Shown in pieces: positions 6,364 to 9,863 of a stretch of 64,000 bases of DNA (its first letter is position 1; each line of letters starts with the position of its first letter). The notes under the pieces are model-generated. The model was not told the DNA's origin and made no database searches. It saw only the letters and a list, made by a program, of their open reading frames with translations. Made by a program: the position numbers and the translations under genes. The stretch is from Saprospiraceae bacterium (lineage in GTDB: Bacteria > Bacteroidota > Bacteroidia > Chitinophagales > Saprospiraceae): NCBI GenBank assembly GCA_013214355.1, contig JABSSL010000076.1:95096-159095 (forward strand), given 5' to 3'.

Positions 6364-7806
6364 CTATGCTCTACATTCTTCTAGGAGCCAGAACTTATTG
6401 ATCACATTTCTAGTTCCTGAAATCTTGGTATGCAGATGATCCAATTTTTCATTCAACCCACTGCGGGTATAGGCAGCAGCTTGGTGTTTGAGCAGCACCA
6501 ATTTTTTGGCAAAACGCAAGAAATTGGTGTATCCTTTCTTTTGTTCGGTGGTCATCTTCTTGTTTCGCATAACATAGATACGGAAAGTCTCGATCAATGC
6601 CAATAGGGCTTCTGTATCTTTTAAGGCGTAGTAGGTGCGTAAGAGCAAGAAGGTGGTATTCAGGTGATATTTGACATCTGTAAATTGGACCAAGAGCAGT
6701 ACCGATAAGGCTTCATTGTATAGTTTTTTATTATAATACAAATGGGCCAGGTTATAATTGTAGGCGTTTTCCTGCCTTTCGACCAAGAGCTTCTCCTTGT
6801 AGGTCTGGATGAAGTTTTCCGTCCATTCAAATTCCTTCAAGCTACAACCTAAAGCGGTGATGTTTTTGTAATTCCATTCTGAAAGAATACCATTATCCAG
6901 GATCAAGCCGGCCTTTAGCCCTTGTTTATACAGCTGGAATAGCTCCCGTTGAAAGTCCCGGTCCCCTCCATTAATCCGGCGAATACAATAATTGATGGCA
7001 AAGGAATAGAGGTCTCCTTGTTCATCCGTACTTAGATTGGGAATCTCATTGGCCAGCATATACTTTAGGCGCTGGTAGGGTTGTGGATCATCATCCTCCT
7101 GCACCAAACTGCGGAAGATAGTGTAGTACAATACGATCGGTGTATCGTTTTCATATTCTGTCCAATTGTCCTTGATATAAGCTAGCAATTCTTGCAGGAA
7201 GTGAAATTTGTAGGCCGTATTCATCATCATTACATTGGCCTGAATGTGGCAGCTATGTCGGAGTTTTTCCAGGATGTAGTAGCGGTCTAGGTTGTCGACC
7301 ATACTTTGCAAGAGGGCCGGCTTTGATCGATCCTCGTACAAGGCCCCATGATACCCCATGGTTTTGTTGAGCTTGAAAGCGGTGTGATATAGATGCCGGT
7401 CTTTGCAAGCATGCTTGTTAAGGTCCTTTTCCAGCAGTTTACCTCGATTTTTCATCAAATCGAATTGATTGCTATCATAGGCAGCCTCGATGGTGAGTAA
7501 TTGCCCCTGAAAGGGGGTGTCTTCAAAACGGCGGTAGGCCAGAAAACTATGATACAGTTTCTTGAGGTAGGACATCACGTTATGTAAACGCTGCTCGTCA
7601 TACCTTTCTTGAGGGAAGAGTTTCTTGAATACAGTTGGCTTCTCCAATGTCCCATTGGGTCGTTCTAACCATTTCTCGATCACTGCGAGCAGCTGTACCG
7701 TTTTATCATGTTTGTTGAAGTAGGGGGAGTGAACAAACAAGTGAAATTTTTCTTTTTCTTTGGCAGGTAGCGCTCCTATATACTTGACTAATCTACTCTG
7801 TTCCAT
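6364..7806 (-). CDS. Helical-repeat protein of unknown function
   Basis: This 480-residue protein has no signal peptide or membrane segment and looks almost wholly alpha-helical. It starts MEQSRLVKYIGALPAKEKEK; phrases such as YNYNLAHLYYNKKLYNEAL and FLLLRTYYALKDTEALLALI suggest TPR-like helix pairs in the C-terminal half. The protein is rich in Lys, Tyr and Leu and probably cytoplasmic. I recognise no catalytic motif. It is monocistronic; upstream (to the right) lies the 1.4-kb non-coding region with tandem RNA units transcribed in the opposite direction. Proteins of this general kind appear to be common but uncharacterised in Saprospirales, which is an impression rather than a search result. 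Confidence 0.75.
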   Translation of the reverse strand: MEQSRLVKYIGALPAKEKEKFHLFVHSPYFNKHDKTVQLLAVIEKWLERPNGTLEKPTVFKKLFPQERYDEQRLHNVMSYLKKLYHSFLAYRRFEDTPFQGQLLTIEAAYDSNQFDLMKNRGKLLEKDLNKHACKDRHLYHTAFKLNKTMGYHGALYEDRSKPALLQSMVDNLDRYYILEKLRHSCHIQANVMMMNTAYKFHFLQELLAYIKDNWTEYENDTPIVLYYTIFRSLVQEDDDPQPYQRLKYMLANEIPNLSTDEQGDLYSFAINYCIRRINGGDRDFQRELFQLYKQGLKAGLILDNGILSEWNYKNITALGCSLKEFEWTENFIQTYKEKLLVERQENAYNYNLAHLYYNKKLYNEALSVLLLVQFTDVKYHLNTTFLLLRTYYALKDTEALLALIETFRIYVMRNKKMTTEQKKGYTNFLRFAKKLVLLKHQAAAYTRSGLNEKLDHLHTKISGTRNVINKFWLLEECRA

Positions 7807-7932
7807 GCAATTTGGCGGTTTTGAAAGATGTATTGAGACCAGTTTTGAGTAGCGAAATTACAAATAAACTGTTGTCTTACAGTTTGTTGTGGAGGGAGGT
7901 GTTGCCGTCTTTGAGTCAGAAAGATAGAAAAA

Positions 7933-7968
7933 TGTACTAAAATATAAAAATGCGGTCAGGTACTTTTG
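7933..7968 (+). promoter_or_regulatory. Promoter of tandem RNA unit 1
   Basis: TACTTTTG at 7961-7968 matches the Bacteroidota -7 box TAnnTTTG. TGTACT at 7933-7938 begins exactly 28 bp upstream, the same spacing as in units 2 and 3. There is no TTG at the usual -33 place, so TGTACT may be an activator site or an alternative upstream element. Confidence 0.6.
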
Positions 7969-7974
7969 TATTGT

Positions 7975-8168
7975 AGTTAGTTACTATATGACTACTTTAC
8001 TACTAGCAATTATTTCCCTTTTGAACAAATCAAATTCCTCAGCTCGGAATAATCTCTAATTTGACACCTAATGGTGTAGTGAAAAATCTGCACCCCTAAG
8101 AAAGAAATTATAATCTCATGAGTACCTAATCGAAAAGGGTATCGCCAATGGCGATACCCTTTTTATTT
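7975..8168 (+). ncRNA. Putative small RNA, tandem unit 1
   Basis: The proposed RNA (about 190 nt) starts near 7975, seven bases after the -7 box, and ends in a perfect 14-bp hairpin (AAAAGGGTATCGCC 8133-8146 with GGCGATACCCTTTT 8150-8163) followed by T-rich DNA. It contains the shared motif TTTACTACTAGCAATTAT (7996-8013). Just before the terminator it has a 17-nt segment, AAATTATAATCTCATGA (8105-8121), that recurs exactly in unit 2. The only frame of note is ATG-AGT-ACC-TAA in that segment. Neither a known Rfam-type RNA nor a protein gene is recognised. The existence of a transcript is inferred from the repeated promoter-body-terminator layout. Confidence 0.55.
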
Positions 8169-8384
8169 TACGGCTAATCAGATTAAAGGTTACTTCCTCC
8201 TATACGTCTTATACTGTTCCTTACTGCCCAAAAGTGTTAAAGTACTGCTCAATTGTCACCTTGGTGTGAAGGTGAAGTAGTGGCTGTAAAAGCAGTTATT
8301 TTGATTATTTGTGATTTAATTAGCTGTTTTTCAGTGATTTATATATAATAAATAGTATTTGTAAAACACAGCCAGAAAGGAAAA

Positions 8385-8420
8385 TGTACTTAAATGCATG
8401 AGAACGATCTACGATATTTG
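8385..8420 (+). promoter_or_regulatory. Promoter of tandem RNA unit 2
   Basis: TGTACT (8385-8390) is followed 28 bp later (start to start) by GATATTTG (8413-8420), a near match to TAnnTTTG. The twelve bases after it, TATAGTGATTAG, align without gaps to those of units 1 and 3. Confidence 0.6.
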
Positions 8421-8426
8421 TATAGT

Positions 8427-8578
8427 GATTAGAAATGAAGCAAATTTTTAATCCTTATTACTAGCAAGTTATAACTCCCAACTTTAAAACTGAAAAGACA
8501 AGGGCTAAGCCCAAAAGATACAAATTATAATCTCATGAAAATTTCCAGAGGATGCCCGTTGGCATCCTCTTTTTTTTG
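8427..8578 (+). ncRNA. Putative small RNA, tandem unit 2
   Basis: This is a proposed RNA of about 150 nt starting at the G of GATTAG (8427). It contains TTATTACTAGCAAGTTAT (8455-8472), matching the motif of unit 1, and AAATTATAATCTCATGA (8522-8538), identical to unit 1. It ends in a strong terminator: AGAGGATGCC (8547-8556), loop CGTT, GGCATCCTCT (8561-8570), then eight T. The terminator stem differs in sequence from that of unit 1 while position and form are kept, which is what selection on an RNA terminator would give. Confidence 0.6.
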
Positions 8579-8841
8579 CTCCAATCCTTCTGTCATCGAG
8601 TTTGACTTTTCCCCATCTACCCATTCGCTCCTGATCTGATCAACAATCTGACTTTTTATCTCCAAACTTTAGCACTGAAATGACTTTTTTTGCGGAAAAA
8701 GCATATGGCATATCGTCGCTATGCAATGCGAAGAGGTGTTTTTATTTTCAGTTTGATAGAACTTTTTTTCAGTTAAAAACCTGAAGATAAGCAGTTTGTG
8801 TTCTGTTCAGAAAGTTTTTTCGAAACAGTGATTCTGTAAAT

Positions 8842-8877
8842 TGTACTATTTAAATGATAAAAGGAAAGCGATATTTG
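8842..8877 (+). promoter_or_regulatory. Promoter of tandem RNA unit 3
   Basis: TGTACT (8842-8847) is again exactly 28 bp upstream of GATATTTG (8870-8877), followed by AAGTGTGATTAG. The region between the two boxes differs from the other units, so the boxes stand out as conserved. Confidence 0.6.
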
Positions 8878-8883
8878 AAGTGT

Positions 8884-9012
8884 GATTAGGTGGACAGCAA
8901 TTATGGTGCTTTTTCCCAGAAGATCACGATAGAGATGTAAAAGACATCTTTACTACTAACAAATTATAGTCCAAAAAAAATGCAGGCCCTGTAAAAAGGG
9001 TGCCTGCAGATT
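8884..9012 (+). ncRNA. Putative small RNA, tandem unit 3
   Basis: This proposed RNA starts near 8884 at GATTAG. It contains TTTACTACTAACAAATTATA (8949-8968), which seems to merge the two motifs kept apart in units 1 and 2. A hairpin follows (TGCAGGC 8981-8987 with GCCTGCA 9002-9008, inner CCCT/AGGG), then only four T. Termination here may be partial, in which case the RNA would run to the strong terminator at 9111-9143. Confidence 0.5.
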
Positions 9013-9110
9013 TTGAATTCATTCAGACAAAGTTCTGTTTCAGATAAAGATTTTTGGATATCGATTTATATCCTTTTTTGGTATGTAGATAGCCTCTCAA
9101 AGCTCTTTAG

Positions 9111-9143
9111 AAAACCGGTTAGTTCCTAGCCGGTTTTTTTTTT
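9111..9143 (+). terminator. Strong intrinsic terminator before rpe
   Basis: AAAACCGGTTAG (9111-9122) pairs with CTAGCCGGTTTT (9126-9137) around a 3-nt loop, followed by a run of T to 9143. It ends transcription from the RNA units. The rpe promoter box TACCTTTG (9143-9150) starts directly at its end. Confidence 0.85.
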
Positions 9144-9150
9144 ACCTTTG
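9143..9150 (+). promoter_or_regulatory. Candidate -7 box of rpe
   Basis: TACCTTTG matches TAnnTTTG exactly and lies 36 bp before the rpe ATG. A TTG at the usual upstream distance is not evident, because that DNA is the terminator stem. Confidence 0.4.
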
Positions 9151-9185
9151 CCCGAATTGATGCAAATATATTAATTTGTCGGCAA

Positions 9186-9863
9186 ATGAAAAAACATTTA
9201 GTTGCTCCATCCCTGCTCGCCGCTAACTTTTCCCGTTTAGAAGATGATATAAAGGTAGTCAATGAATCCAATGCGGATTGGTTTCACGTAGACATTATGG
9301 ATGGACACTTTGTTCCTAATATTTCCTTTGGGCCCATGATTGTGGAAGCCATCAAAAGCAAGGCAGAACGCCCTTTGGATGTGCATTTGATGATTAGTCA
9401 GCCAGAGCGCTATATAGAGCGTTTTCGTGACGCTGGTGCGGATGTGATTACCGTGCATTATGAGGCTTGCCCACATTTGCATCGTACCATACAGCAGATC
9501 AAAGAAACAGGAGCCAAGGCGGGAGTAGCTTTAAACCCACATACGCCAGTCCATTGGCTCCGAGATATTATAGAGGATCTGGATTTGGTGTTGATTATGT
9601 CTGTCAATCCCGGTTTTGGAGGGCAGAAGTTTATTTACAATTCCTTATTGAAGATTCGGGAAGTGAAAGATATGCTCGTTAGCCGTAATGCCAACGCCTT
9701 GATTGAAGTAGATGGAGGAGTGGGTTTGCAAAATGCTCAAAAGATATTGGAGGCAGGTGTAGATGTATTAGTGGCGGGAAGCAGCGTCTTTAAAGCAGAA
9801 AATCCCAGTCAGGCCATTCAGCAGTTAAAGGATATTGGGCACGAAGTAGGGAAGATGGTGTAG
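9186..9863 (+). CDS. rpe: Ribulose-phosphate 3-epimerase
   Basis: This 225-residue cytosolic TIM-barrel enzyme interconverts D-ribulose 5-phosphate and D-xylulose 5-phosphate in the pentose phosphate pathway. The start MKKHLVAPSLLAANF is typical of the family. Metal and catalytic residues are all visible: His34, Asp36 and Met38 in WFHVDIMDGHFVPN, His67 in DVHLMI, and Asp176 in IEVDGGV. The flexible loop MSVNPGFGGQKF is also present. Length is normal. The gene has its own promoter box after a terminator and is followed by a TonB receptor with a 133-bp gap, so it is probably monocistronic. Confidence 0.97.
   Translation: MKKHLVAPSLLAANFSRLEDDIKVVNESNADWFHVDIMDGHFVPNISFGPMIVEAIKSKAERPLDVHLMISQPERYIERFRDAGADVITVHYEACPHLHRTIQQIKETGAKAGVALNPHTPVHWLRDIIEDLDLVLIMSVNPGFGGQKFIYNSLLKIREVKDMLVSRNANALIEVDGGVGLQNAQKILEAGVDVLVAGSSVFKAENPSQAIQQLKDIGHEVGKMV

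Follow-up and report, generated by a model that had tools for sequence, protein, structure and literature searches.

Three tandem predicted small-RNA genes upstream of rpe in a Saprospiraceae genome: two conserved families that may act as decoys for a complementary multicopy family

The window, a 64-kb stretch of a Saprospiraceae genome, has a gap between the start of a minus-strand ORF at 7806 and the plus-strand gene rpe (ribulose-phosphate 3-epimerase, 9186 to 9863; PF00834, 282 bits). As the initial annotation stated, this gap is free of protein genes: neither strand has an ORF of at least 60 aa from 7806 to 9186. No tRNA or tmRNA was found in the 64 kb. The gap holds three predicted sRNA genes in tandem on the plus strand (7933 to 9143), described below as members of two families, class I (units 1 and 2) and class II (unit 3). 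Each is preceded by TGTACT and TTTG boxes at a fixed distance, a regularity that the initial annotation had noticed. The boxes lie at 7933 and 7965 in the unit 1 promoter (7933 to 7972; TACTTTTGTA), at 8385 and 8417 in that of unit 2 (8385 to 8424; GATATTTGTA), and at 8842 and 8874 in that of unit 3 (8842 to 8882; GATATTTGAA), all with the conserved 32-bp spacing. The downstream box had been given as TAnnTTTG-like; unit 1 has the strict form, but units 2 and 3 read GATATTTG. GTTAG or GATTAG stands at the expected starts (7976, 8427, and 8884).

Unit 1 (7974 to 8165) is a predicted class I sRNA with relatives in three genomes (G001 to G003, 86–97% identity) and class I counterparts in other genera. 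It contains a partial copy of the M motif defined below (TACTACTAGCAATTATTTCCC, 7998 to 8018), a fuller copy with two mismatches in the genome-wide M search (GAAATTATAATCTCATGAG, 8104 to 8122), and a terminator-type hairpin (8133 to 8163). Unit 2 (8427 to 8577) is predicted to be a class I sRNA, its 3′ end being a variant form, and is matched by an 88% identical copy in G001; it has an M motif without mismatches (CAAATTATAATCTCATGAA, 8521 to 8539) and a terminator predicted from sequence (8547 to 8577). Unit 3 (8884 to 9143) is a predicted class II sRNA, as indicated by its relatives and by a covariance model match of 99.0 bits at 9026 to 9140, the window itself being part of the model's alignment. 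Its M motif (TACTACTAACAAATTATAGTCC, 8951 to 8972) includes an 18-nt perfect complement of a predicted RNA of the anti-M family described below (at C202). The shared motif reported earlier for each unit is present as TACTACTAGCAA, TACTAGCAA, and TACTACTAACAA at 7998, 8459, and 8951, and the 17-nt segment common to two units is AAATTATAATCTCATGA, in units 1 and 2. Hairpin terminators are likewise present, but a hairpin seen in sequence and folding at 8980 to 9008 of unit 3 has no T-run after it, and termination is assigned instead to 9109 to 9139.

The promoter arrangement exceeds chance. TGTACT occurs 29 times in the 64 kb, and TGTACT-N26-TTTG three times on both strands together, at units 1 to 3 only. 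Across 1.37 Mb of overlapping loci from relatives, the 32-bp spacing occurs 110 times (80 units with the class II block and 30 without it), against at most five cases for any other spacing from 20 to 49. The spacing fits a −33/−7 promoter of Bacteroidota. Neolewinella units have TGTACA or a similar sequence in the TGTACT position.

Class II RNAs follow a common plan: TTGTACTT, then TTTGTATTGTC placed 32 bp after TGTACT, a variable body, a hairpin that reads GGATATC-loop-GATATCC in many members, a 28-nt block (GGTATGTAGATAGCCTCTCAAAGCTCTT), and a CCGG-type terminator. In unit 3 the last three elements are hairpin 1 at 9056 to 9073, the block at 9080 to 9107, and the terminator feature at 9109 to 9143, which is identified by terminator prediction and by covariation. 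The block, which the initial annotation did not contain, is the most conserved element: no substitution affects its first 23 nt in any of the 61 units, representing 23 genera, that BLAST or the model found, and changes occur at positions 24, 26, and 27 only. It sits between two stems that do vary. Over 34 sequences, 93.5% of cells in hairpin 1 and the terminator are paired, and 14 of the 19 pairs show two-sided changes. Cells with two-sided changes number 80; shuffling gives 19.5 ± 5.8, and sliding the partners gives no more than 21. The 34 sequences were drawn from 54 non-redundant units; the 20 omitted are near-duplicates, are cut short, or differ in the distance between hairpin 1 and the block. 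RNAalifold predicts a weak, invariant helix inside the block. Together, the covarying hairpin, near-invariant block, and covarying terminator define class II as a new RNA family of predicted sRNAs.

Relatives of unit 3 extend well beyond its genus. BLAST of 7820 to 9180 against 60 relatives matched the region within the genus and repeatedly gave strong matches to about 9056 to 9147 in other genera; the many matches with E above 0.001 were mostly chance. A covariance model of the class II 3′ module, aligned from 20 candidates with one (L044) left out, has matches in 40 of 199 genomes of the host family. The count is taken as 38 because two genomes with weak matches (G070 and G191) show no block. 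These 38 genomes fall in 23 of 112 genera, with one to five model matches per genome. An exact 21-mer of the block occurs in 90 stretches of GTDB 220 species genomes. Among the 80 of these that are listed, titles name Lewinella, Neolewinella, Phaeodactylibacter, Flavilitoribacter, Haliscomenobacter, Saprospiraceae, and related labels, or else give broad labels only (Bacteroidetes, Bacteroidia, Chitinophagales, “bacterium”); none names a group outside these. Divergent class II members may be missed because the sequences used in both the BLAST and model searches included the block. Units of Haliscomenobacter type and from ALOHA (five loci) keep promoter, hairpin, block, and terminator without an M motif, and in two of these loci (L108 and L109) the predicted RNAs are slightly more than 100 nt.

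Class I units share the promoter, lack the block, and are present in many class II loci. A block-less TGTACT-N26-TTTG unit lies 0.4–1.5 kb upstream on the same strand for 22 of the 85 class II units whose upstream sequence is long enough, and on the opposite strand for none of the 85. Most class I units end in ATTATAATCTCATGAGTG..AAAGGGT, a hairpin, and a T-run, and the stem has two-sided changes in 9 of 13 pairs (17 sequences). Several genera, including those of six named loci, have a second conserved class I 5′ motif, a CAC(A/G)ATGAAACACTAT start, which is absent from the units of the window. A peptide read from it (ATGAAACACTAT, MKHY...) was considered and set aside as probably not coding, since its length ranges between 4 and 65 aa and TTG replaces the ATG in one copy.

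The proposal of a single family of three units is thus amended. Conservation, with relatives at other loci and covarying hairpins in both classes, supports promoter-RNA-terminator units of new predicted sRNAs, but units 1 and 2 differ from unit 3 in their 3′ modules, which rules out one family and indicates two related families with a common promoter and motif. Units 1 and 2 are predicted to be members of class I, a sister family of class II, and an origin of the three units by tandem duplication is plausible.

The motif common to both classes, M, is TACTACTAACAAATTATAATCYCATGAA or parts of it, within the variable bodies. Class II RNAs contain on average 1.59 M cores, compared with 0.017 after mononucleotide shuffling of the bodies. 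This count covers the 86 of 98 distinct class II units in which a promoter was found, the 98 including units located by the exact 21-mer; 26 of the 86 have no core, 22 have one, and 38 have two to six. A probe, TACTACTARCAA, had nine sites in the window's own genome, two of them inside the region itself, and one of the others (L009) led to a further family. An M search of that genome gave 13 sites within two mismatches. Nine of these show, on the opposite strand, TYCATGRGATTATRATT and after it a hairpin with a T-run; these are the anti-M copies, a predicted sRNA family marked by the reverse complement of M and absent from the initial annotation. The other sites are units 1 and 2, one site over a start codon (L227), and one unclassified site. 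Short matches alone mean little here because ATTATAAT is palindromic.

Anti-M units are often tandem, about 100–310 nt apart, and some have a ATTTGTAYYGTGA promoter-like start. Five arrays carry up to four hairpin modules with apparently one promoter-like start, and judged from this layout a tandem array may be one long RNA. Outside class I and II, and over all loci read, a terminator follows the anti-M orientation at 45 sites and the M orientation at 4. Among 114 M or anti-M sites in the loci read, 22 are unclassified and 2 begin an ORF of at least 60 aa. The anti-M pattern, whose matches include the M sites of class I and II themselves, is found in 152 of 199 host-family genomes (reversed control, 7). 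Elsewhere in the phylum it occurs in 10 of 290 genomes, the reversed control in 2 of 296. It is present in each of the 40 genomes in which the class II model has a match, compared with 112 of the 159 others (Fisher p = 6e-6, relatedness ignored). The anti-M core, for example at L225, contains ATG TTC ATG GGA TTA TAA, readable as a five-codon ORF that is probably a by-product of mirroring a start site.

M itself resembles a translation start, AAATTATAATCYC-ATG. At L227 an M site covers the start codon of an ORF (501 aa, cut) with a signal-peptide-like start and no Pfam match, and the leader is predicted to pair with anti-M across its own start codon. The 21-mer at this site is shared without change by the four genomes of the genus, its context having been read in the window's genome. 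Units 1, 2, and 3 are perfectly complementary to anti-M RNAs of the same genome over 16, 18, and 18 nt, respectively.

These observations suggest that the locus comprises three tandem predicted sRNA genes, from two conserved Saprospirales families, whose M motifs would likely titrate the multicopy anti-M RNAs as sponges imitating a translation start. This reading is favored, with a confidence somewhat above even. All three kinds of unit would be transcribed. Anti-M RNAs would repress mRNAs by pairing over start codons, L227 being the one candidate leader, and class I and II RNAs would mimic a translation start and compete for the anti-M sRNAs. Several results count against the sponge. Few mRNA start sites carry M, as the 2 of 114 sites illustrate, an M core is lacking from 26 of the 86 class II RNAs, and in Neolewinella the motif is changed and no partner was found. 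Whole-RNA duplex energies are equivocal: 18 unit/anti-M pairs gave z values from −4.5 to +0.3, and two neighboring spacers used as controls reached similar energies, down to −54 kcal/mol with one anti-M RNA.

The class II block may be a separate second seed, for which the 3′ region of accA in the host genus is a candidate partner. The region just after accA (PF03255) was the sole candidate found. In three species it contains AGCTTTGAGAGGCTAT, 16–18 nt that include a variable stretch, and TACATACC, which in two parts complement 24 of the first 25 block bases; the predicted pairing energy is about −36 kcal/mol, compared with −12 ± 3 for mononucleotide shuffles. The partner pattern CTTTGAGAGGCTATD has seven sites in 6 of 41 genomes, three of them after accA (reversed control, 3), and only the three accA sites look meaningful; a second pattern, BGGCTATCTACATAC, has no site in the 41 genomes. 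Allowing up to three mismatches, the block pattern has six sites in the window's own genome (control, 2), of which two are class II units and one is the accA site. The accA site is a candidate only, because the surrounding intergenic region is also well conserved and the site is absent from G003 (80% complete) and from other genera. Three such loci also have a further conserved stretch, CTCAGACCTGACATGACTAAGAGAAAGCGGCTCAATATCCAAAGTTAGATC, in the interval from accA to the following gene. Beside class I and II units in two loci of one genus (L100 and L101), the reverse strand carries CTTGAGAGGCTAT, close to the complement of the block, followed by a hairpin and a T-run; to judge by its sequence, this unit is a possible anti-block RNA.

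An alternative, unlikely but the strongest of those considered, is that M repeats are sites for an RNA-binding protein, with class I and II RNAs sequestering that protein rather than an sRNA. The core common across genera would be TAATCYCA. In Neolewinella and some Lewinella-labelled class II units (six loci), the bodies repeat GGCACAAGCG-AATTRTAATCTCA instead of M, the two having only the TAATCTCA end in common, and a search of three Neolewinella genomes at up to three mismatches for a complementary partner returned only one class II RNA itself. This search was strict, since it also missed the repeats of G141; G141 and G217 each have a single anti-M pattern match. The changed repeat and the class II RNAs without M would be compatible with a protein recognizing the TAATCYCA core, and the window's own genome encodes two RRM_1 proteins (at C155 and C88; open frames of 129 and 131 aa). 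An RRM-type protein, RbpB, binds FopS sRNAs in Bacteroides, according to PMC11697453. Protein sites would, however, leave unexplained a multicopy family with exact reverse complements of at least 20 nt and terminators. Somewhat less likely again is that class II is an ordinary trans-acting sRNA working through the block, to which the M motifs were added secondarily or in particular lineages. It is the block that stays constant, M is missing from the Haliscomenobacter-type and ALOHA units, and the post-accA complementarity recurs in three species; yet partner sites for the block were as few as described, seven for one pattern (reversed control, 3) and none for the other, and class I carries M without any block.

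Two further explanations treat the units as something other than independent RNA genes. Their multiple copies at different loci, partly in tandem, might suggest mobile or structural repeated DNA, which is very improbable: stems covary while the block stays unchanged, promoter spacing is fixed, and orientation is tied to terminators. Moreover, unit 3 has no match in phage or plasmid collections and the block 21-mer has none in viral contigs. Least probable is a cis-acting leader or attenuator of rpe. Of the 98 distinct class II units, 38 are indeed followed by a same-strand rpe that starts no more than 1 kb away, as in the window. In 47 others this interval contains no rpe, and for the remaining 13 the locus ends too early to tell. 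For 26 of the 47, the nearest ORF of at least 80 aa is on the opposite strand, and a terminator separates the class II RNA from rpe. A leader was ruled out on this variable position. The initial annotation had anticipated relatives upstream of rpe or elsewhere, to be sought with a covariance model; both kinds of location were found, at least 47 of the 98 units lying elsewhere.

The claim that this RNA type is new is also supported. Scans of the window and of 20 loci carrying class I, II, and anti-M units gave no match at gathering score to any Rfam 15 family, 6S RNA, tmRNA, and riboswitches included. At E up to 10 the region gives sub-threshold matches only, the best being mir-5681 (28.2 bits; 88 needed). 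In searches of open-licence PMC papers, none listed for Saprospir-, Haliscomenobacter, Lewinella, or Saprospira concerns these RNAs by title or abstract. Among the closest known systems is FopS/GibS of Bacteroides thetaiotaomicron, paralogous multicopy sRNAs in which a single-stranded conserved seed precedes the terminator and binds near start codons (PMC11697453). Anti-M units are similarly multicopy in Bacteroidota, with a motif followed by a hairpin and T-run. They differ in having another seed sequence and no Rfam match at gathering score, whereas FopS is stated there to have been deposited in Rfam. Anti-M is also accompanied by a family of complementary decoys; the accessible text of PMC11697453 does not use the word “sponge” and reports no sponge RNA. 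QrrX of Vibrio cholerae is a dedicated RNA that pairs with and inactivates the paralogous sRNAs Qrr1–4 (PMC9732341). Units 1 to 3 are likewise complementary to predicted sRNAs of the same genome, over 16–18 nt. The proposed sponges differ from QrrX in forming two multicopy families, in which many RNAs have several M sites; class II also has its invariant block. CsrB/RsmZ-type RNAs titrate a protein through GGA motifs in hairpin loops. Here too, short motifs are repeated in RNAs that would titrate a regulator, but the motif is matched by a family of complementary RNAs.

Both paralogous sRNAs and sponges have precedents, and multicopy decoys set against multicopy sRNAs, one decoy family having an invariant seed, would be a new variant. 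Knowledge of sRNA biology in Bacteroidota comes mainly from Bacteroides. The wider proposal, held more tentatively and with rather less than even confidence, is clade-wide RNA-against-RNA control, in which multicopy, often tandem repressor sRNAs, with matches in three quarters of the sampled family genomes, are opposed by two multicopy decoy families, one doubling as a regulator through its frozen 28-nt seed. If correct, it would add a multi-family sRNA network in another order, and possibly an unseen layer of gene control in Saprospirales. The constancy of the block makes the identity of its partner a sharp question. Sponges and sponged RNAs would be recognizable from sequence, also in cultured strains; class II sequence occurs in Flavilitoribacter nigricans and Phaeodactylibacter luteus.
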